Below, in pieces: positions 1,858 through 14,338 of a DNA stretch of 64,000 bases. The notes beneath the pieces were generated by a model, which ran no database searches, was not told the DNA's origin, and saw nothing but the letters and a program-made list of their open reading frames with translations. The stretch comes from Brevibacterium iodinum ATCC 49514 (GTDB taxonomy: Bacteria; Actinomycetota; Actinomycetes; Actinomycetales; Brevibacteriaceae). The position numbers and the translations under genes are program-made. Each line of letters starts with the position of its first letter. Position 1 is the stretch's first letter. The stretch lies in the NCBI RefSeq assembly GCF_900169265.1, contig NZ_FXYX01000001.1:186001-250000 (forward strand). Direction: 5' to 3'.

Positions 1858-2040
1858 TGAGCACCTCCTCGCGTGCGCCGTTGGTGCTGGATAGTCCTTT
1901 CACCGTACTTCGCGCCGATCATGTGCAACAGGGGGTGCGGGGCCGCCCGAGCACCCCCGGCACCGGTGAACCCCCTTGTCGCGGCTTCCGAACGGGGTTA
2001 GGTTTGACGGACGTCGACAATGCTGTCTGGAGGCTCTCAC

Positions 2041-2553
2041 ATGGGACATTCGCTGCACCTCACCGTCGACGGCCAGGAGCACACTCTGGTCGTGGATTCC
2101 AGAACCACTCTTCTCGATGCGCTGCGGGACCGGTTGAGGGTGATGTCCGCGAAGAAGGGCTGCGACCACGGCCAATGCGGGGCCTGCACCGTCCTCGTCG
2201 ACGGTCGTCGGCTCAACTCGTGCCTGGCGCTCGCGCTCACCCACGACGGCGCCGAGGTCATGACCGCCGACGGTCTGGCCCCCGAGGGTGAACTCTCCAC
2301 TCTGCATCGGGCGTTCCTCGCCCACGACGCGTTCCAGTGCGGGTACTGCACCCCGGGCCAAGTCTGTTCGGCCGCAGGCATGCTGGCCGAGGCCGCCGAC
2401 AACGCACCGAGCGTGGTCACCGAAGACCTCGAGGGGCCCGTGGAGCTGTCCGAGGAGGAGATCCGCGAGCGGATGAGCGGGAACCTCTGCCGCTGCGGAG
2501 CCTATGTCAACATCGTCGCGGCCGTGAGCCGAGCCGCAGAGGAGTCACGATGA
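2041..2553 (+). CDS. [2Fe-2S] subunit of a xanthine dehydrogenase-family molybdenum hydroxylase (PaoA/YagT type)
   Basis: This small electron-transfer subunit carries two [2Fe-2S] clusters that pass electrons from the molybdenum site towards FAD. A plant-ferredoxin-like N-terminus has CDHGQCGAC plus a later Cys. The C-terminal all-helical domain has CGYCTPGQ and CRCGAY. At 170 residues the length is normal for the subunit. I chose the ATG at 2041 because GGAGG sits about 7 bases upstream; an in-frame ATG at 2020 has no such site. It is the first gene of a coupled operon: its TGA overlaps the ATG of the FAD subunit. Order and fusion state match the aldehyde-oxidising PaoABC (YagTSR) family, but the substrate cannot be read from sequence. 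Confidence 0.93.
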   Translation: MGHSLHLTVDGQEHTLVVDSRTTLLDALRDRLRVMSAKKGCDHGQCGACTVLVDGRRLNSCLALALTHDGAEVMTADGLAPEGELSTLHRAFLAHDAFQCGYCTPGQVCSAAGMLAEAADNAPSVVTEDLEGPVELSEEEIRERMSGNLCRCGAYVNIVAAVSRAAEESR

Positions 2554-3589
2554 ATCCCTTCGACTACGAACGCGCAGCCGATGCCGCCGGAGCCGTCACA
2601 ACTGTCACCGATCGTCCCGATGCGGTGTTCCTGGCCGGCGGCACGAACCTCGTCGATCATCTCAAACTGGGCGTCGCAGAACCGGATCTCGTCGTCGACA
2701 TCAATCCTCTCGAGCTCACGGAGGTCGAGGCACTCGATGACGGGGGCCTGCGGATCGGTGCGATGGTGCGCAACAGCGACGCCGCCGCCGACCCGCGCAT
2801 CCGATGCGACTACCCGATGCTCTCACGTGCCCTGCTCTCCGGTGCGTCCGGTCAGCTGCGCAACGCGGCCACGATGGGCGGGAATCTGCTGCAGCGCACG
2901 CGGTGCGTGTACTTCCAGGACACCTCGACCCCCTGCAACAAACGCGAGCCCGGTGCCGGCTGCTCGGCCATCGGCGGCTACACCCGCTACCACGCGATCC
3001 TCGGTGCCTCAGCGGACTGCGTGGCCACGCATCCCTCCGATATGGCCGTCGCTCTGACCGCACTCGATGCCACAGTCGTCGTCCTCGGCGCGACCGGTGA
3101 GCGCCGGATCCCGGTCACCGAGCTTCACCGGCTGCCCGGGGATCGCCCGGAGCAGGACACCGTCCTCGAGCATGGTGAACTCATCACGGCACTCGAGCTC
3201 CCTCCCCCGCGGCCCGGCGCCTCGACGTACCGGAAGATCCGCGACCGCGCCTCCTACGCCTTCGCTCTCGTCTCCGTCGCTGCCCGAGTCGACGTCGACA
3301 CCGCAGGGCACGCGCCGGTCATCCGTGAAGCCGCGATCGCCCTCGGCGGCGTCGCCCACAAACCCTGGCGTGCCCGCGCCGCCGAGGCGGTGCTGCGGGG
3401 GGGGGGGCGGAACCGACTGCCGAGACGTTCCTGGCAGCAGCCGACGCCGAGCTCGAGGCGGCGGAACCCCTCGACGGCAACCGCTTCAAGGTCCAAATGA
3501 CACGCGGATCGATCAGCACCGTGCTCGCCGAGCTCACCGGAGCCCCGGAAGTTCTGCCGGAATCGACCACGGGGGACACTCATGAGTGA
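2550..3589 (+). pseudogene. FAD-binding subunit of the molybdenum hydroxylase (PaoB/YagS type), frame broken at a poly-G run
   Basis: The FAD-binding middle subunit starts at an ATG overlapping the previous stop. FAD-binding signatures FLAGGTNL and ATMGGNLLQRTRC are present. Cys residues in PCNKREPGAGC and DCVATHPSD match the insertion that holds an extra [4Fe-4S] cluster in PaoB. As written, the frame passes through eleven G at 3397-3407 into an unrelated Arg/Ser-rich tail and stops at 3500. Moving to the frame reached by one extra G (or two fewer) restores a family-like C-terminus, with TFLAAADAELEAAE and GNRFKVQMTRGSISTVL, ending at TGA 3587-3589. That end overlaps the next start by 8 bases, which supports the restored frame. 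The break may be a sequencing slip, a real mutation or a switchable tract. Confidence 0.85.
3397..3407. repeat. Eleven-G homopolymer inside the FAD-subunit gene
   Basis: The run of eleven G is followed by CGG. I noticed no comparable run elsewhere in the window. It is exactly where the coding frame is lost. Long G tracts slip readily in replication and in sequencing. Confidence 0.95.
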
Positions 3590-5654
3590 CCTGCTCACGA
3601 CCACAGCCGTCGGTACCCATCAGGTCCGCCTCGACGGCCCCGCCAAGGTCCGCGGCCTCGCCCCCTACGCCTACGAGCACCCCCTCGACTATCCGCTCTT
3701 CCTCTACCCGCTGCAGGCGAAGATCGCCCGTGGGCGGGCAGCGCACATCGACCCTTCCGCAGCCGAAGCTGCGGAGGGAGTGGTGCATGTGCTCACCCAC
3801 GACAACGCCCCCGAGCTGGCGGACACGGATGACGGTGAGCTCGCGATCCTGCGCTCTGCTGAGATCGGATTCCGAGGCCAGTACCTCGGTGCCGTCATCG
3901 CCACCACTCCCGAGCAGGCCCGCCACGCAGCGAGCCTCATCGAGATCACCTATGTGCAGGACGATCACGACGTCGAGCTGCGCGAGGATCACCCTGCTTC
4001 CCAGGAACCGGAGTCGGGCAGCGGGGATGTGCGCACAGGCGATGTCGACACAGCCCTCGCTGAGGCGGCCGTATCCATCGATGAGCGCTACAGCACCCCC
4101 ATGGAGCACAACAATCCCATGGAACCGCATACCACCGTCGCCCTCTGGGACGGAGACGAACTGACCCTGTGGACCTCGACGCAGGGCGTGCACCCCGCAC
4201 GCGCGACATTGGCGCCGATCCTCGGGGTGGAGCAGGAGAAGATCCGCATCATCTCCCCGCACGTCGGCGGCGGCTTCGGCTCCAAGGGCGTCCCCCACGC
4301 GGACATGATGCTCGCTGTCCTCGCGGCGCAGGTGGTGCCGGGTCGACCCGTGAAATATGCCGTGACCCGGCAGCAGATGTTCTCGATCACCGGCTATCGA
4401 GCTCCGACCCTGCAGCACATCCGTCTGGGCGCGAGAGCCGACGGCACGCTCACGGCCTTCGCTTATGATGCGATCTCCATGTCCTCGCAGACCAAGGAGT
4501 TCCCCGAGGAGTCGACGAAGCCGGGCCGCATGATGTACGCAGGCGACAACCGCCGCATCACCCAGCGAGTGGTTCCGCTCGACGTGCCGGTGCCCTCCTG
4601 GATGCGTGCTCCCGGCGAGGCTTCAGGCATGGTCGGACTCGAAATCGCCATGGACGAACTCGCAGTGGCCGCCGGCCTCGACCCCATCGAGCTGCGGGTG
4701 CGCAATGACCCGACCACGGACCCGGACACCGGACTGCCGTTCAACCAGCGCCGCCTCGTCGACTGTCTGCGAGAAGGAGCAGACCGTTTCGGCTGGGAGA
4801 AGCGGAATCCGCAGCCGCGCGCCCGGCGGGAGAACGGCTGGTTCATCGGCATGGGCGTGGCCTCTGCGACCTACCCGGCAGGCAGGCAGCCGGGCTCTGT
4901 CGCGCGGATCCGCCGCACTCCCGAAGGCTTTGAGGTCTCGATCGGTGCCGCCGATCTGGGCACCGGGACGTGGACCGTCCTGTCTCAGACTGCCGCGGAC
5001 GCTCTCGGCGTTCCCATCGGGCAAGTCGAGCTGCGAATCGGCGACACCGCGCTGCCGAACGCGACTGTGGCCGGCTCATCCACGGGACTGGCGAGTTGGA
5101 GCACGGCGATCGTCACCGCAGCCCAGGAGCTCCGTTCCGAGCACGGAGCCGATCCTGCCATCGGCGCCGAGGCCCATGGTGAGGCCGAGGCCAATCCAGC
5201 GGCGGAGAAGTTCGCCCTACACTCTTTCGGAGCCCATTTCGCCGAGGTCCGCATCCAGCCGACCACCGGTGAGATCCGACTGAGGCGCATGTTCGGCATG
5301 TTCTCCGCCGGTCGGATCGTCAACCCGACCACCGCACGCTCACAGTTCATCGGCGGCATGACCATGGGCGTCGGGATGGCTCTGCATGAGAAGGGCGAGC
5401 TCGACCCGCGCTTCGGTCACGTAGTCAACCACGACCTCGCGGAGTATCACGTGCCCGTCAACGCCGACATCACCGACATCGAGGCAGATTGGCTCGATGA
5501 GAAGGACCCGCTGGCCGGTCCCCTCGGCGCGCGCGGCGTCGGTGAGATCGGCATCGTCGGTGCCGCAGCCGCGATCGCGAACGCAGCCTTCAACGCCACC
5601 GGAGTCCGAGTCCGCGATCTGCCGATCTTCGGCGACGCGTTCCTGCCGACGTGA
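3582..5654 (+). CDS. Molybdopterin-binding catalytic subunit of xanthine dehydrogenase-family enzyme (PaoC/YagR type)
   Basis: The large subunit binds the molybdenum cofactor and hydroxylates the substrate, probably an aldehyde or N-heterocycle. At 690 residues it has the normal length for the separate-subunit form. Glycine-rich cofactor motifs are visible, such as HVGGGFGSKG near residue 225. The C-terminal GARGVGEIG near residue 645 contains the Glu expected to be the catalytic base. The start at 3582 overlaps the restored end of the FAD subunit, and its own TGA overlaps the GTG of the next gene, so the four genes form one coupled operon. PaoABC relatives use the cytosine-dinucleotide form of the cofactor; that this one does too is inferred from the downstream nucleotidyltransferase. 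Confidence 0.93.
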   Translation: MSDLLTTTAVGTHQVRLDGPAKVRGLAPYAYEHPLDYPLFLYPLQAKIARGRAAHIDPSAAEAAEGVVHVLTHDNAPELADTDDGELAILRSAEIGFRGQYLGAVIATTPEQARHAASLIEITYVQDDHDVELREDHPASQEPESGSGDVRTGDVDTALAEAAVSIDERYSTPMEHNNPMEPHTTVALWDGDELTLWTSTQGVHPARATLAPILGVEQEKIRIISPHVGGGFGSKGVPHADMMLAVLAAQVVPGRPVKYAVTRQQMFSITGYRAPTLQHIRLGARADGTLTAFAYDAISMSSQTKEFPEESTKPGRMMYAGDNRRITQRVVPLDVPVPSWMRAPGEASGMVGLEIAMDELAVAAGLDPIELRVRNDPTTDPDTGLPFNQRRLVDCLREGADRFGWEKRNPQPRARRENGWFIGMGVASATYPAGRQPGSVARIRRTPEGFEVSIGAADLGTGTWTVLSQTAADALGVPIGQVELRIGDTALPNATVAGSSTGLASWSTAIVTAAQELRSEHGADPAIGAEAHGEAEANPAAEKFALHSFGAHFAEVRIQPTTGEIRLRRMFGMFSAGRIVNPTTARSQFIGGMTMGVGMALHEKGELDPRFGHVVNHDLAEYHVPVNADITDIEADWLDEKDPLAGPLGARGVGEIGIVGAAAAIANAAFNATGVRVRDLPIFGDAFLPT

Positions 5655-6310
5655 GCGGCGAGACCGGGTCGACTCCTCCCAAACGACCCGTCCCCGGTCC
5701 CCCAAGAGGACTCGTCCTCGCCGCCGGAGCGGGGCGACGCCTCGGCCGAGGGCCGAAGGCACTGCTGGTGCGGGAGGATGGGCTCACCCTGGTGGAGTCG
5801 ATGGTCCTCGCCCTGCTCGACGGTGGCTGCCGGGACGTCACAGTCGTCACCGGAGCCTGCAGCGAGCAGGTCGCGCGCCTGCTGGCCGGGTGTGACCGCG
5901 TGTCCGTCGCGTTCAACCCTGACTGGTCTTCGGGTATGGGTTCCTCGCTGCGCCGCGGCCTGCAGGCGATCGGCCCCGGACCCGACGTCATGGTCACACC
6001 TGTGGACCGTCCCGGAATCTGTGCGGCGGAAGTCGCTCGTCTCATCGCCGCCCATCGTCCCCGTGCGATCACTGCTGCGGGCCACTGTGATGCGAATGGG
6101 TCGCTGCGCCGCGGTCACCCTGTGCTCTTCGACGAGAGCTGGACGAGCCAGGCGGCGGCCGCCGCGCACGGCGACGTCGGTGCCCGCGACCTGCTCGAGA
6201 CGCGCAGAGCTGTCGTCGACCTCGTCGACTGCTCCGACCTCGACGACGGGGCCGATGTCGATGTGCCCGAGGATCTGCACAGGCTGACAGTCGTCAGTTC
6301 TCGCGATTAG
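5651..6310 (+). CDS. MobA-like nucleotidyltransferase, probable molybdenum cofactor cytidylyltransferase (MocA type)
   Basis: The protein (219 residues) opens with the nucleotidyltransferase motif LAAGAGRRLGRGPKALL near residues 20-36, followed by a TPVDRPG metal-binding segment near 117. Enzymes of this type attach CMP or GMP to molybdopterin. The gene is translationally coupled (GTGA overlap) to the hydroxylase subunits, and XdhC-family partners of such enzymes occur in the same pathway. A MocA role, making molybdopterin cytosine dinucleotide for the upstream enzyme, is therefore the best inference. The GTG start at 5651 is chosen for the overlap. Confidence 0.85.
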   Translation: MSGETGSTPPKRPVPGPPRGLVLAAGAGRRLGRGPKALLVREDGLTLVESMVLALLDGGCRDVTVVTGACSEQVARLLAGCDRVSVAFNPDWSSGMGSSLRRGLQAIGPGPDVMVTPVDRPGICAAEVARLIAAHRPRAITAAGHCDANGSLRRGHPVLFDESWTSQAAAAAHGDVGARDLLETRRAVVDLVDCSDLDDGADVDVPEDLHRLTVVSSRD

Positions 6311-6373: not shown

Positions 6374-7084
6374 TCATCGAAGGCTCTGCATAAAGCTGCT
6401 GAAGCCTCCCTCCGCGCGTCCCTCCAGACGGGCCGAGGTGAGAACCCGGCAGGTATCGGTGCGTCTCACGTTTCCCCCCGCGCCGAGCACTGCAGCAACG
6501 GTTGCGGCATCTTCGCCAAGTGGCAGCTGAGGCATGCCGCCGATGATGTTGAGATACGAGCCTCGAATGCCCAGGTTCGCGCCGAACACGTAGGGGTGGT
6601 CCTCAAGTAACGTGTGGTGAGAGTGCCATTTCGCGATCAGCGCTGCCGACCCAGTATCAGGTCGCGGCGACACTGTGCCGACTAGGCAGTCGCTTCCGGC
6701 TTCCGCCAAGGCAAGATGCGTCGTCAGCCAGTGAGTGGGAACTCTGCTGTCCGCATCGGTGAACGCAATCCATGTCAGGTCGAAGTTGACATCACGATCA
6801 GCTTCAACCATCTGCTTGAAGTGATTCCAGGCGAAATTCCGGGCACTGCCCACGTTCTTGAACGACGTCTCAAGTATCGTGACTTGTGGATGCTGTTCGG
6901 CGAAGTCTGCGACGCGGCTCACCGTTTCGTCGGTACAGGCGTCGGCCACGACGAGGATTCGAGTGGACAATGGCGCGAGCCCATCAGGGACCTGAGCACA
7001 CGCTTGGGCCACCGAGTCGAGACAGCCGAGGATCTCGTCTTGTTCATTGTGAGCCGGGATGACAATGCCCAAGTGCGTGATCAC
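6374..7084 (-). CDS. Family 2 glycosyltransferase
   Basis: This 236-residue cytosolic GT-A fold enzyme begins GIVIPAHNEQDEI, has VVADACTDET at about 46-54 and the metal/nucleotide-sugar motif DADSR at about 110-114. A likely catalytic region follows with LGEDAATVAAV near residue 200. No membrane helices are visible. The GTG start overlaps the stop of the upstream deacetylase-methyltransferase gene (GTGA), so it is the last gene of a three-gene coupled operon. It probably transfers a sugar onto, or builds, the glycan that the partner enzymes deacetylate and methylate. Donor and acceptor are unknown. Confidence 0.88.
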   Translation of the reverse strand: MITHLGIVIPAHNEQDEILGCLDSVAQACAQVPDGLAPLSTRILVVADACTDETVSRVADFAEQHPQVTILETSFKNVGSARNFAWNHFKQMVEADRDVNFDLTWIAFTDADSRVPTHWLTTHLALAEAGSDCLVGTVSPRPDTGSAALIAKWHSHHTLLEDHPYVFGANLGIRGSYLNIIGGMPQLPLGEDAATVAAVLGAGGNVRRTDTCRVLTSARLEGRAEGGFSSFMQSLR

Positions 7085-8499
7085 TCAACGGCTTCCGCAG
7101 GGAGGAAATCGTCAGTTTTGTCCACCGTCACGATATCGAGACGATACTCGGCCTCGGAGCGAAAATCGGTCCGCAGTCGGGGCCAGTAGTCCAGGCACGC
7201 GTCATGGACTTCATCGGCGGTCAGAGGCCAATCTTCGATGTCACCCTTCCAATGACAGAGAACGAGCACAAAGCGCGATGGGGTTGATTCATCAATGCGT
7301 TCCAACGTTCGTTGCAGCTGTGCACGTGTCAGATAGAAGCCGGTCTCTGAGAGGACGACGCAGTCGAAATGCCCTTCGGGCCATTCGTATGGGACAGTGG
7401 CGTGCAGGAAGGCTATTTCGGTTGCAGTGGTCGTCTGCAGACGTTTCGCTGTTTTCAGCGCCTCGCAGCTGGCATCGACAGCTGTCACTCTGACGCTGTA
7501 AGCGGCAAGCTCTCGAGTCAAAGCGCCGACTGAACAACCGATCTCGAGAATGTGGGAGAACGAGGTCGACGGGAGGTGGGACACAAGGGTCTCGCGTTTG
7601 GCGATTTCGTATTCGGAGTCCCACACCGTCCACGGATCGCTCCGTTCTCTGTGCACATCATCGAACACCGCCGACGCAGTGGACGCATCATTGATCCGCG
7701 AGCCTATTCCCTCCTGACCAGAGCTCGGCGATGCCTCACCGGATCTGAAATCCGTGATCACGAAAGTATCGTGGCTCCGGATGAAGTGTTCCAAATGGGC
7801 GCTGGTGAGGATCGCTTCGTCCCCGTGCTGATCCGACAGCGCTTCTGTCTGCGACGGGTAACACGCGAGCAGAGCGTTTCGATCGAGACCTTGTGGGTCG
7901 GCTAAGGTCTGCCAGGCCTGCCACCGAGGGTCTGTGGGAGCAGCCCAGTGCCAGAACCAGATGGGATATTCGAGCACTACGGCATGATGTGATCGCCCGA
8001 TGTCCAGCGCCGCGGCGCCCACCGCCTCGTGGTCACAGTGCCCATCCCGGCTGTAAGGCGCAACGAGTGTCACCGGCCCATGTGATCGTGCGATCTCCTG
8101 TCGGATCACGTCTCTGATCTTGCTTGAATATTCGGGCAGTTGACCGTCGGGCAGATCGAGAAAACGACTGGAGTGCGCCTTGTCGAAGGTGCTCAGCGCA
8201 CGATCGAACTCCTCCAGACGGATGCTTTTGAGCTGATCGCCGGTATACGTCGGTGACTCAGGGTGCGATTTTTCGCCTGCGCTGAAGAGTAGGACTTTCA
8301 GCTGGCAGCTCCACTCATCGGCACGTGCGAGCAGCGCAGCGGCTCCCAGCGCTTCATCGTCTGGGTGTGCGGCAAGGACGATGATGGTTCCGCCTGTGGC
8401 GATTGTGCTCTCTGGAAACGCCGGAAGATCAAGGGCACCCGCCTGCACCCAGGCATCTTCTCTGGTGCTGCGGTCTTGGTGGCTAAACCTCATCGACAT
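7081..8499 (-). CDS. PIG-L family deacetylase fused to a NodS-like SAM methyltransferase
   Basis: This is a two-domain protein of about 472 residues. Residues 35-250 form a PIG-L/LmbE zinc deacetylase with AAHPDDEALG at 43-52 and a second metal motif HCDHEAVG at about 154-161; such enzymes remove acetyl from N-acetylglucosaminyl groups. Residues 285-460 form a class I methyltransferase with LEIGCSVGALTREL near 318 and VTAVDAS, resembling the NodS N-methyltransferases of lipo-chitooligosaccharide synthesis. The start is ATG 8499 or 8493, both inside the end of the upstream gene; an earlier in-frame ATG would overlap that gene by over 120 bases. The fusion suggests deacetylation of an amino sugar followed by methylation. 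Substrate unknown. Confidence 0.88.
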   Translation of the reverse strand: MSMRFSHQDRSTREDAWVQAGALDLPAFPESTIATGGTIIVLAAHPDDEALGAAALLARADEWSCQLKVLLFSAGEKSHPESPTYTGDQLKSIRLEEFDRALSTFDKAHSSRFLDLPDGQLPEYSSKIRDVIRQEIARSHGPVTLVAPYSRDGHCDHEAVGAAALDIGRSHHAVVLEYPIWFWHWAAPTDPRWQAWQTLADPQGLDRNALLACYPSQTEALSDQHGDEAILTSAHLEHFIRSHDTFVITDFRSGEASPSSGQEGIGSRINDASTASAVFDDVHRERSDPWTVWDSEYEIAKRETLVSHLPSTSFSHILEIGCSVGALTRELAAYSVRVTAVDASCEALKTAKRLQTTTATEIAFLHATVPYEWPEGHFDCVVLSETGFYLTRAQLQRTLERIDESTPSRFVLVLCHWKGDIEDWPLTADEVHDACLDYWPRLRTDFRSEAEYRLDIVTVDKTDDFLPAEAVE

Positions 8500-9541
8500 C
8501 TGACTCTGCACAGATATTCTCGCCCAAAGCAGCTTCGTCCCGAGGCCCGTGATGCTGACTGAGGTAGACGGTGAGATCAGCGTCAGCTTTGGCAAATGCC
8601 GCATCACTCGTCAGAACCGCGGGACCGGCCAGCTCCCGGCTCAGAAGCTGGATCCGTTGGGCACTGCGGTATATGTTGTTGCGAACTCTCAGAGCCAGTC
8701 TCCACGCGTGTTCTCGCGAGAACTTCTCATCCCCATCCGCTGCAGCAGCAGTTTGCGCCAACATGGTGCGGACCGCGAAGATCTCAGCATCAAGCTGCCC
8801 GAGCTGCATCTCTCCCATCGGCGAGCGCCCAGCCCTGTTCAGGTGGGTTTGGGCTGCACGCCGGGCCAGTCCCAATGCTCCACCGAACCAGCAGGCTGCC
8901 ACGCGAATCCCGCCCCAAGCGAAAGAGGGGCGGTCAAGGTACCAATTCGGGGGGCCGACACTCGTCGCGGGTGCTCGGTCGAAGACGACTGAGCCGCTCG
9001 GGATTTCTCTGAGACCCAGACTCGGCCAAGCACCTGTCTGCGGTCGTACACGAGGGTGCCGAAGATTCACCGCGTAGGCTCGGTTCCCGTCGCTGCCGCT
9101 GGCGATGACGATCGCGTCGGTGAGTTCCGCGGCCAAAGAGCACCACGCTTTCGTGCCGGTGAGGAGGTTCTCCGCACCGGCATCGACCACGTTCACGCGA
9201 TGTGTGGGCAGGTCAGCCGCGTATACGCCCCAGGCCGAATCGGGGTCAGGTGTTTCGTGTCCGGCCTCGGCAAGGATGCCCAGAGCGTCGACGTGGGGTT
9301 CGAGCATACGAGCGACGCCGATGTCGATCGCAGCCAGTTGAAGCAGCCTTTCCCATTGATCGATCTGAGGTGAGCACCCTGTGAGCTGCAGAAGACGGGC
9401 AAGGGCGGTGATCTTGTCGACAGCAGACGCACTGCTCGTGACGACCTCGGTGAGATCATCCCTGAAGTCTGGAGTTTCCCACCACGGTTCGAACGGTGTG
9501 GCGATGATCCCAGACGAGGTTGAGTCGAACAGGGTTTCCAT
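8483..9541 (-). CDS. Acyl-CoA dehydrogenase-like flavoprotein
   Basis: The protein (352 residues) has the helical-barrel-helical layout of acyl-CoA dehydrogenases, with LTGTKAWCSLAAELTDA in the middle domain and a C-terminal helical domain ending in YLSQHHGPRDEAALGE. The ATG at 9541 follows GAAGGA at a good distance; longer in-frame starts lack a site and have atypical composition. It overlaps the start of the deacetylase-methyltransferase gene by about 16 bases and heads the operon. Its sequence looks divergent from beta-oxidation enzymes, so it may oxidise a special acyl or amine substrate. That role is inferred only from the neighbours. Confidence 0.82.
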   Translation of the reverse strand: METLFDSTSSGIIATPFEPWWETPDFRDDLTEVVTSSASAVDKITALARLLQLTGCSPQIDQWERLLQLAAIDIGVARMLEPHVDALGILAEAGHETPDPDSAWGVYAADLPTHRVNVVDAGAENLLTGTKAWCSLAAELTDAIVIASGSDGNRAYAVNLRHPRVRPQTGAWPSLGLREIPSGSVVFDRAPATSVGPPNWYLDRPSFAWGGIRVAACWFGGALGLARRAAQTHLNRAGRSPMGEMQLGQLDAEIFAVRTMLAQTAAAADGDEKFSREHAWRLALRVRNNIYRSAQRIQLLSRELAGPAVLTSDAAFAKADADLTVYLSQHHGPRDEAALGENICAESDVDEV

Positions 9542-9721
9542 TTCACGTCCTTCGGGCAGAACATTTCGTCGGAACTCGGTGTGTAGTGAACACGCAGGAG
9601 ACAGTCGGAGGTGATGGCTCTGAACACGCTTATATCTCAAGTGGGTGCAGATACCCAATTCCAGCCGGCTCTTCCACATCACCCCAATGTGCAGACTAGC
9701 GGCATGCTTGGCAGATCTCAG

Positions 9722-10810
9722 TCAACTGCTCTCCACCGTGTCGTCGGCATCTGTGCTGTTGTCTGTATAGACTCGTTGCCGCATCCGCTGGCCATGAGTC
9801 AGCTTCTGCACGTCGGCATCAGTGTCGAAGCTGGCACCGAGGCCGCCGGCGACCACACCCATAGCTGCGCTGAGCCATGCGATATCGAGGTAGTTGGTGA
9901 ACGACGCGTCTTGTTGAATCTGTTGGGTCATAAATGCCGGATCGATAACGACGAGGCCGCCCAGGAGAATGAGGACGACCAGTGTCGCGTAGAGAGCGAT
10001 CACAGTGATCAGCAGTGTGAGGACGGTGGAGAGGTTGTAGTACATGACCACCGTGGCCAGACTTTCGTTGACCGGTCGATCCCAGAGTCTGTGACTGACG
10101 ATCAACCAGGCGACCATCATTAGGATGGCGAGCGCGCCGATTGAGAGCAGCCGGAGGGTGGACAGGTAGGTCGACATCTGCCAGATCGAACTGTAGAAGA
10201 TGCCGAAAGCTCCGGTTGCCGAGGCTGCCGCGAGGGCTCCTGAGAGCTTCGGAGCCGTGCGCCAGGGTTCGTTGGCAATCGTCATCCCCATAATCAGCCG
10301 TGGGCCTCCGGTGATGGTGTGGGCATGCAGGGACTGATGGCTGGAGTCTTCATTGTTCGACCAGTTCGACCATCCGAGCAGAAATTTGCGCGCCGTGGCT
10401 TCGGGGTCCCACGGAACCAACTTGTTCACCGAGCTCATCATGACTTTGATGATGCGGCGCTTGGTGGCCAACGCGCCGAGTGTGGGGCATGAGATGACCG
10501 CAAGGTTGCGGTCAGAGTAGACTTCGGCGATCAGAGGGTCGCCCTGGGTGTGCCGGGGGATCTCTGTGAGGATGAGGATGATGTTGACGTCGGGGTAATC
10601 AGCGCGGAGATCTTCGACTGCGTCTAGAGCCAGCTCGCGCTCGGGTGTCAGATAGACCGTGTCGGTGCGAGTGTGCAGCGTCGTTGTGACCCCATACGCC
10701 TCACGCAGATAGCGCTCTAACGAGGAGTGGATGGAAGCCGCTCGCCTGCTGGGCAGACCTGGATCGGCCACGACCAGCACTTGAAGAGCCTGGGATGAGG
10801 TGGTGGGCAT
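9722..10810 (-). CDS. Membrane protein of unknown function with N-terminal soluble domain
   Basis: The protein has 362 residues. Residues 1-165 look like a soluble alpha/beta domain (LQVLVVADPGLPSRRA at the start, NIILILTEIPRHTQGD near 75). The remainder contains about four hydrophobic segments near residues 195-215, 220-240, 255-290 and 312-330. The C-terminal tail is hydrophilic and acidic. The ATG at 10810 lies downstream of a GGAGGA-like stretch. I do not recognise a functional family with certainty. It stands alone between the glycosyltransferase operon and the heat-shock region. Confidence 0.75.
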   Translation of the reverse strand: MPTTSSQALQVLVVADPGLPSRRAASIHSSLERYLREAYGVTTTLHTRTDTVYLTPERELALDAVEDLRADYPDVNIILILTEIPRHTQGDPLIAEVYSDRNLAVISCPTLGALATKRRIIKVMMSSVNKLVPWDPEATARKFLLGWSNWSNNEDSSHQSLHAHTITGGPRLIMGMTIANEPWRTAPKLSGALAAASATGAFGIFYSSIWQMSTYLSTLRLLSIGALAILMMVAWLIVSHRLWDRPVNESLATVVMYYNLSTVLTLLITVIALYATLVVLILLGGLVVIDPAFMTQQIQQDASFTNYLDIAWLSAAMGVVAGGLGASFDTDADVQKLTHGQRMRQRVYTDNSTDADDTVESS

Positions 10811-13198: not shown

Positions 13199-14338
13199 TC
13201 AGTGAAGAGACGAATCTTCCCGTTCGTCGCTGAGGGGAACGACCTGCCGGTGGCCACCGCGTACAGCGAGGATCTCTGCGAGGATCGACACAGCCACCTC
13301 GGCGGGGGTGAACGTCTCCAAATGGAGACCGATCGGCGAATGCAACCGTGCCAGTGCTGGGCTAGCCACTCCCGCTTCGCGCAGCGCGGCGCGGCGGTCG
13401 CGGTCGCTGCGCCGCGAGCCCATCGCCCCGACGTAGGCCACGTCGAGGTCGAGTGCGACGGCCAGGGTGGGGATGTCGACCTTCGGGTCGTGGCTGAGGA
13501 CGCAGATCATGCTCCGGGTGTCGAACTCACCGGTGGCGGCCGCTTCGGTGAGGAATCGGTGCGGCCAGGCCCGAACCACCTCGGCGCCGGGAAACGATGT
13601 CTGGTCGGCGAAGGACGGACGGGGGTCGCACACTGTGATGCGCAGTCCCAAGGGTCTAGCCGCTTCGACGAGGGCGAGACTGAAGGCGTTGGCCCCGACG
13701 ACCAGCAGATGGGCCGGCTCGATGCGGGTCTCGACGAAGAGCTCGATCGGCTCGCTCCCGCCTTCCGGGGGCGCAAGGCGGATGCTGCCGGTGCGGCCGC
13801 CGCGGATAAAGGCCCCGACGCGCTGTGCGGCGGTCTCGACCACAGCTTCGGGCACCAGAGGATCGAGGCTGACAGCCAGAGCGTCGGTGCTCGGTCCGGA
13901 GACGTCGCCCACAGCGGCTGCGCAGACGGCTGCCGCTGGGGCATGGGCGCGGTCGTCGGACGGCAGCCGCAGCACCACGGCGACCGGCTCGCTCTCCGCT
14001 CGCAGTCCGGAGCAGCCAGCGCGGAACGGCTGGATGAGCACGTCGATGCGACCACCGCACATGAGCCCGACGGCAAAGGCATCCTCGTCGCTGTAGCCGA
14101 AGCCCTGCACCGAGGCGTCGCCGGTGGCGAGGGCGTCCTGACACGCCTCGAGCACGGCTCCTTCGACGCATCCGCCGGTGAGGGAGCCGACGATTCCGCC
14201 GACGGTATCCACGAGCATCGAGGTGCCTGCCGGGCGCGGCACTGAGCCTTCGGTTTCGATGATCGTCGCAACGGCGACGTCCTGCGGCTCCTCCGAGTCG
14301 AAGAGCCGTGACACGGCGATGGGAAGGATATCGAGCAT
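13199..14338 (-). CDS. XdhC/CoxI-family molybdenum cofactor insertion protein
   Basis: This 379-residue chaperone family protein binds the molybdenum cofactor and helps sulfurate and insert it into xanthine dehydrogenase-type enzymes. The N-terminal XdhC domain has ATIIETEGSVPRPAGTSML and the conserved GGCVEGAV. MCGGRIDVLIQPF follows near residue 95. The C-terminal Rossmann-like domain has HLLVVGANAFSLALVEAA near 215 and CVLSHDPKVD near 285. Length and layout match the long form. It lies 7 kb from the PaoABC-like operon, its likely client, on the opposite strand. Confidence 0.9.
   Translation of the reverse strand: MLDILPIAVSRLFDSEEPQDVAVATIIETEGSVPRPAGTSMLVDTVGGIVGSLTGGCVEGAVLEACQDALATGDASVQGFGYSDEDAFAVGLMCGGRIDVLIQPFRAGCSGLRAESEPVAVVLRLPSDDRAHAPAAAVCAAAVGDVSGPSTDALAVSLDPLVPEAVVETAAQRVGAFIRGGRTGSIRLAPPEGGSEPIELFVETRIEPAHLLVVGANAFSLALVEAARPLGLRITVCDPRPSFADQTSFPGAEVVRAWPHRFLTEAAATGEFDTRSMICVLSHDPKVDIPTLAVALDLDVAYVGAMGSRRSDRDRRAALREAGVASPALARLHSPIGLHLETFTPAEVAVSILAEILAVRGGHRQVVPLSDEREDSSLH

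Follow-up and report, generated by a model that had tools for sequence, protein, structure and literature searches.

The window analysed here, a stretch of 64,000 nucleotides from Brevibacterium iodinum ATCC 49514, contains a three-gene operon at 6374-9541 (Table 1). The coordinates given in a preliminary description of this DNA were right, with all three genes on the minus strand, and its claim that the genes are coupled is borne out by their stop-to-start overlaps, which amount to 17 nt between ORF1 and ORF2 and to 4 nt (GTGA) between the ORF2 stop and the start of ORF3. ORF1 starts with an ATG that is preceded by AAGGA, ORF3 starts with a GTG, and ORF2 could equally well begin at an in-frame ATG at 8493. 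The ORF2 protein is 95-98% identical to its counterparts in B. linens, B. permense, B. sediminis and B. renqingii.

Table 1. Features of the operon, numbered from the first letter of the window
Feature	Position	Strand	Details
ORF1, ACAD-fold flavoprotein, first operon gene	8483..9541	(-)	352 aa; sub-threshold ACAD Pfam matches, AlphaFold pLDDT 86.6
ORF2, PIG-L deacetylase and NodS-like SAM methyltransferase fusion	7081..8499	(-)	472 aa; Pfam, motifs, model
ORF3, soluble GT-A glycosyltransferase of family 2	6374..7084	(-)	236 aa; PF00535, conserved acidic motifs
Intergenic region upstream of ORF1 (180 bp), likely operon promoter site	9542..9721	(-)	gap to next upstream gene

A promoter of the SigB/SigF type (GTTT-N14-18-GGGTA) was rejected for the window, as no match to the consensus was found upstream of ORF1. 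A GGGTAT lies ~115 bp upstream of this gene, without a matching -35. Across actinobacterial loci, SigB/SigF-type sites with at most one mismatch were found at 10 of 43, with 13 sites against ~1.8 expected from mononucleotide shuffles.

The reading of ORF2 as a fusion of a GlcNAc-type deacetylase family member with a methyltransferase is upheld by Pfam, as PIG-L (PF02585; 83 bits against a cut-off of 28.2, residues 41-166) and NodS (PF05401; 46.1 bits against 24, residues 286-395) both score above their cut-offs; ORF2 also matches Methyltransf_25. The AlphaFold model contains two well-predicted domains, PIG-L at residues ~27-250 and the NodS-like methyltransferase at ~275-460, connected by a low-confidence, flexible linker (255-268). 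The motifs of the Zn and SAM sites are intact, and their key residues are conserved at 96-100% in relatives: H45, D47, D48, H154, D156 and H157 of the HPDD and HxDH motifs are present in 100% of 79 PIG-L sequences (P46 in 93%), and among 83 methyltransferase sequences E385 reaches 100% and E319, C322, G325 and D342 reach 96-98%. The two domains share one reading frame at 26 of the 86 loci that we collected, of which only one, L116 of the Pseudomonadota sample, is not actinobacterial; beyond actinobacteria, the deacetylase and the methyltransferase are mostly encoded by separate, adjacent genes. Because its distribution is narrow, the fusion is probably the derived state, and it supports the notion that the two enzymes act in consecutive steps. 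An apparent triple fusion (L017) was set aside as a likely frameshift.

The third gene was correctly identified as a GT2 glycosyltransferase: PF00535 scores 60.6 bits against a cut-off of 23.3, and the catalytic acidic motifs are kept, with D110-A111-D112 and E191 at 100% and D192 at 97% in 75 sequences. No hydrophobic or membrane segment was found in ORF3 (maximum 19-residue hydropathy, 1.04), and the GT2 enzyme of the set scores far under every named NCBIfam glycosyltransferase model.

For ORF1, the description as acyl-CoA dehydrogenase-like stands as far as the fold is concerned, since the AlphaFold model has the ACAD fold and resembles isobutyryl-CoA dehydrogenase with a TM of up to 0.80, but it does not extend to the sequence family or the catalytic residues. 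The Pfam scores fall below cut-off (Acyl-CoA_dh_M, 23.1 against 33.3; Acyl-CoA_dh_1, 15.9 against 22.4), and the catalytic glutamates are largely replaced: 80 of 86 sequences have H, S, P, A or C at position 330 and 85 of 86 have G at position 210, if these positions are, as we assume from motif knowledge and a low-identity alignment, the catalytic site of MCAD (376) and the alternative site of IVD (254). ORF1 has its own set of residues that are invariant or nearly so (E81, H83, Y201, R287 and Q329). Its top fold match is the sugar N-oxygenase KijD3 (4kcf; E 2.3e-13, TM 0.77/0.67), directly followed by dehydrogenases with nearly equal E values and slightly higher TM scores, and profile alignment places a CSGA-type flavin-loop motif in common between ORF1 and both DszC and TdsC. 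Compared with the ACAD-fold monooxygenases (the nitrososynthases KijD3, DnmZ and ORF36, DszC/TdsC and MsuC), ORF1 has an identity of 15-19%, a shorter N-terminal domain and invariant residues of its own. Judged from sequence and model, ORF1 is probably an oxidising enzyme and not an acyl-CoA dehydrogenase, and the 'acyl-CoA dehydrogenase' labels of these proteins should not be taken to imply fatty-acid enzymes.

A search across genomes with the ORF2 fusion recovered the order ORF1-ORF2-ORF3 in 21 of 21 actinobacterial loci, and because every one of these loci keeps it, the gene order is conserved far beyond chance. Searches with the flavoprotein alone were run on even per-phylum genome samples, in which strong relatives occurred in 25 of 396 Actinomycetota genomes (E <=1e-20, our own genome counted) and in 33 of 398 Pseudomonadota genomes (E <1e-30); a score gap separates them from ordinary dehydrogenases. 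The four families (glycosyltransferase, sugar deacetylase, N-methyltransferase and flavoprotein) all lie within 5 kb at 43 of the 56 loci found in this way, in several gene orders, and at least two of the other three families are near the flavoprotein at 50. At 20 control loci with ordinary ACADs from the same Pseudomonadota sample, the full set was found at none, a PIG-L or glycosyltransferase match at none and a weak methyltransferase match at one. Chance clustering of the four genes is therefore rejected. The flavoprotein, regarded in the preliminary description as an addition to the other activities, thus turns out to be a core part of a four-enzyme set, and it is the most diagnostic member.

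Complete sets are present at 72 of the 86 loci in our collection, which includes near-duplicate Brevibacterium and Pseudarthrobacter. The order ACAD-PIGL-MT-GT is found at 43 of these 86 loci and GT-ACAD-PIGL-MT at 11; further orders occur, and at some loci the glycosyltransferase gene lies on the opposite strand. As the set persists through many reorderings, there is strong evidence for one shared pathway, and we consider it virtually certain that the four genes belong to a single one. Records of Nostoc, Methylobacterium, Streptomyces, A. baumannii and Deinococcus likewise contain complete sets, and Legionella lytica has all four genes, with the flavoprotein annotated merely as hypothetical. 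What had been presented as a feature of one non-symbiotic actinobacterium is thus widespread and spans no fewer than four phyla of bacteria, namely Actinomycetota, Pseudomonadota, Deinococcota and Cyanobacteriota. The patchiness of this spread within Actinomycetota and Pseudomonadota, together with plasmid-borne sets in Bradyrhizobium, Acinetobacter, Pandoraea, Komagataeibacter and Sulfitobacter, would suit a secreted specialised metabolite, antibiotic-like or a signal, in which a KijD3-like flavoprotein would generate an N-oxidised amino sugar; the rank of KijD3 among the fold matches and the MFS transporter genes that adjoin some sets point the same way. We nevertheless hold this to be quite unlikely, as exporter, regulator, NRPS/PKS and resistance genes are not consistently present, the genes that recur beside the set serve stress responses and DNA repair, and the fold comparison does not tell N-oxygenases and dehydrogenases apart.

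The deacetylase, methyltransferase and glycosyltransferase had been likened to NodB, NodS and NodC, which build the Nod-factor backbone, and this analogy holds for the methyltransferase only. Among characterised proteins, NodS is the nearest to this domain (hmmsearch E 6e-22) and ranks second among its Foldseek matches, and a profile of the methyltransferases of the set gives NodS proteins 94-102 bits against 7-42 for generic methyltransferases in three genomes. The NodS equivalog NF041650 lies well out of reach of ORF2 (43.7 against a cut-off of 300). In a tree, five NodS proteins form one clade that is sister to the methyltransferases of the set, with a support of 85/58 for the joint branch and long outgroup branches; the tree thus gives NodS as a sister group and does not place its origin inside the set. 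The first Foldseek match, 4isc from Pseudomonas syringae, belongs by sequence to the methyltransferase family of the set and is 65-69% identical to four of its Pseudomonadota members (L088, L090, L092 and L093); it is a stand-alone protein, whereas the domain is fused in ORF2, and the PDB entry is titled 'putative methyltransferase' without an assigned function. In contrast, NodB is a polysaccharide deacetylase (PF01522) and ORF2 a PIG-L protein, with no PF01522 match in Pfam at E values up to 0.1, and NodC, a large chito-oligosaccharide synthase of the membrane, differs from ORF3, which is small and soluble. Furthermore, nodA, nodU and nodI have no counterpart at the operon, the flavoprotein has none among the Nod-factor genes, and no nod genes were found around the operon, unlike at true nodS loci. 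Membership in a Nod-factor pathway was rejected on the NodB and NodC features.

With a confidence just short of even, we propose a conserved four-enzyme pathway that is deployed with stress-survival genes and whose product would be a small conjugate of an N-methylated amino sugar; for the N-methylated amino sugar as product, taken by itself, the case is evenly balanced. The soluble GT2 enzyme would first attach an N-acetylhexosamine (most likely GlcNAc, donated by UDP-GlcNAc) to a small acceptor in the cytosol. The PIG-L domain, which depends on a metal, would next remove the acetyl group from the sugar conjugate, and the NodS-like domain would use SAM to methylate the freed amine, with the fusion holding the latter two steps together. 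The ACAD-fold flavoprotein may then oxidise the product, and for this step an oxygenase or N-oxidising activity is more likely than acyl-CoA dehydrogenation. In this scheme we infer the substrates, the order of the steps, the flavoprotein reaction and the protective role. The nearest characterised relatives of the ORF2 domains (diacetylchitobiose deacetylase, MshB, BshB and NodS) act on GlcNAc or its amine, and the solved PIG-L relatives further include TT1542 and, by Foldseek, LnmX; PIG-L and NodS-like folds also serve other molecules, which counts against an amino sugar. Because PIG-L proteins include the catabolic diacetylchitobiose deacetylases, the set might instead degrade, salvage or detoxify an acylated amino compound, and in Deinococcus the flavoprotein is fused to a glycosidase-like domain and a family-1 glycosylhydrolase gene adjoins the set. 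Such a catabolic role is highly improbable, as methylation by SAM and glycosyl transfer from an NDP-sugar cost energy, which argues for synthesis, and genes for uptake and sugar kinases are not recurrent.

The biosynthetic scheme follows a logic similar to that of mycothiol (MshA/MshB) and bacillithiol (BshA/BshB), in which PIG-L frees the amine of a GlcNAc conjugate built by a glycosyltransferase and a third enzyme modifies that amine. MshA and BshA are GT4 enzymes; the operon has a GT2 enzyme instead, lacks a ligase or thiol-forming enzyme, and would use N-methylation and oxidation in their place. Identity of ORF2 with the deacetylases of these pathways was rejected, as it falls below the NCBIfam equivalog cut-offs for MshB (15.2 against 224), BshB1 (33.1 against 182.5) and BshB2 (21.1 against 195). 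A bolder version of our proposal, that this is a hitherto undescribed cross-phylum small-molecule pathway of the standing of mycothiol or bacillithiol, yielding an N-methylated, possibly N-oxidised glucosamine conjugate for stress survival by means of a methyltransferase that shares a close ancestor with rhizobial NodS, seems rather unlikely at present.

The neighbourhood of the set is rich in stress genes. Recurrent neighbours are a large KatE-type catalase, trehalose-6-phosphate synthase (OtsA), Ku, LigD, DUF421 and topoisomerase IB, and in one Pseudomonadota group alpha-amylase-family (glucan/trehalose) enzymes adjoin the set. The catalase occurs at 10 loci, where a rough estimate (1-2 per genome, 20-kb stretches) predicts fewer than one by chance in ~77 loci that are not all independent. 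In the window, genes for Hsp20, a PLD enzyme, Ku, ChaB and an SDR lie within ~9 kb. In A. baumannii, ACICU_02432-02435 are marked as one operon whose expression drops 31-62 fold in colistin-dependent mutants, in which otsAB falls 12-50 fold (PMC5660220), and the set adjoins blsA (PMC6240043). For stress protection as the role of the pathway, we see an even chance; the absence of a stress-type promoter from the window counts against it, and the set might lie near stress genes because such places are hot spots for insertion and not because of a shared function. In M. smegmatis, the group-2 glycosyltransferase MSMEG_1097 of the SigF regulon (PMC4694148) is a possible first gene of a set in mycobacteria, given that the glycosyltransferase gene comes first in several actinobacterial loci. 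No link to the set was established for the EcfG stress-controlled glycosyltransferase cluster #3505-3509 of S. melonis, and the other EcfG regulon papers searched held no trace of it.

Extra glycosyltransferases (GT4, GT2 and GT28-type) also lie beside the set at many loci, as in Novosphingobium, where katE-GT4-GT2-GT-ACAD-PIGL-MT-GT2 all run in one direction. They would be expected if the set decorated the cell envelope, with the GT2 enzyme glycosylating a lipid or a glycan to give a glycolipid, capsule or LPS-type product, and glf beside the set in Deinococcus and the lower expression in LPS-deficient A. baumannii (PMC5660220) fit such a role as well. We regard it as unlikely, however, since all three proteins lack a membrane segment, flippase, ligase and polymerase genes are not recurrent among the neighbours, and the identical minimal set recurs in hosts whose envelopes differ greatly (Gram-positive, Gram-negative and cyanobacterial).

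In the full-text literature searched, which covered few subscription papers, no characterised pathway or product was found for the set, in agreement with the preliminary description; its genes appear there only in gene lists, annotated or differentially expressed. The pathway is real, widespread and, as far as found, uncharacterised. The set supplies the nearest non-symbiotic relatives of NodS, and its recurrence in four phyla beside catalase, trehalose and DNA-repair genes makes it a strong starting point in the search for an as yet unknown stress metabolite.

In the window, the operon adjoins genes for the Mo and FAD subunits of a molybdenum hydroxylase, for its 2Fe-2S-like small subunit, which was recognised from the sequence of that protein, and for a MobA-like nucleotidyltransferase; on the opposite side of the operon lies an XdhC gene. 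In M. smegmatis, a Mo oxidoreductase is listed as SigF-controlled (PMC4694148). A Pfam search of the predicted membrane protein encoded upstream of the operon returned no match.

Elsewhere, the set has other neighbours. In Acinetobacter baumannii, the blue-light receptor gene blsA directly adjoins it (PMC6240043). Plasmid pHR1a of Novosphingobium resinovorum carries an extended form of the set, in which eight genes (katE-GT4-GT2-GT-ACAD-PIGL-MT-GT2) run in the same direction throughout. At four further Pseudomonadota loci (L088, L090, L092 and L093), the set is followed downstream by an additional PIG-L gene, which adjoins alpha-amylase-family genes.

Coordinates of the features (window, or locus handle with its own numbering)
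Feature	Coordinates	Strand	Location
Molybdenum hydroxylase with MobA-like gene	window 2020-6310	+	adjoins operon
Predicted membrane protein	window 9722-10810	-	upstream of operon
XdhC gene	window 13199-14338	-	opposite side of operon
Eight-gene run	L155:755-9367		N. resinovorum pHR1a
Flavoprotein with N-terminal glycosidase-like domain	L047:2050-4512	+	Deinococcus plasmid
Flavoprotein with N-terminal glycosidase-like domain	L147:5647-8010	+	Deinococcus plasmid
Triple fusion	L154:4312-7401	+	Rhizobium sp. WYJ-E13 plasmid NZ_CP076854.1

Fused proteins were also observed. On Deinococcus plasmids, the flavoprotein follows a large N-terminal glycosidase-like domain in one protein totalling ~820 aa. 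In Rhizobium sp. WYJ-E13, a GT2 is fused to a NodS-like methyltransferase and to a deacetylase domain of the NodB type (PF01522), all within a single frame of 1029 aa; in the methyltransferase tree, this protein is the closest row to NodS, and it is a real triple fusion, NodC/NodS/NodB-like in its make-up.
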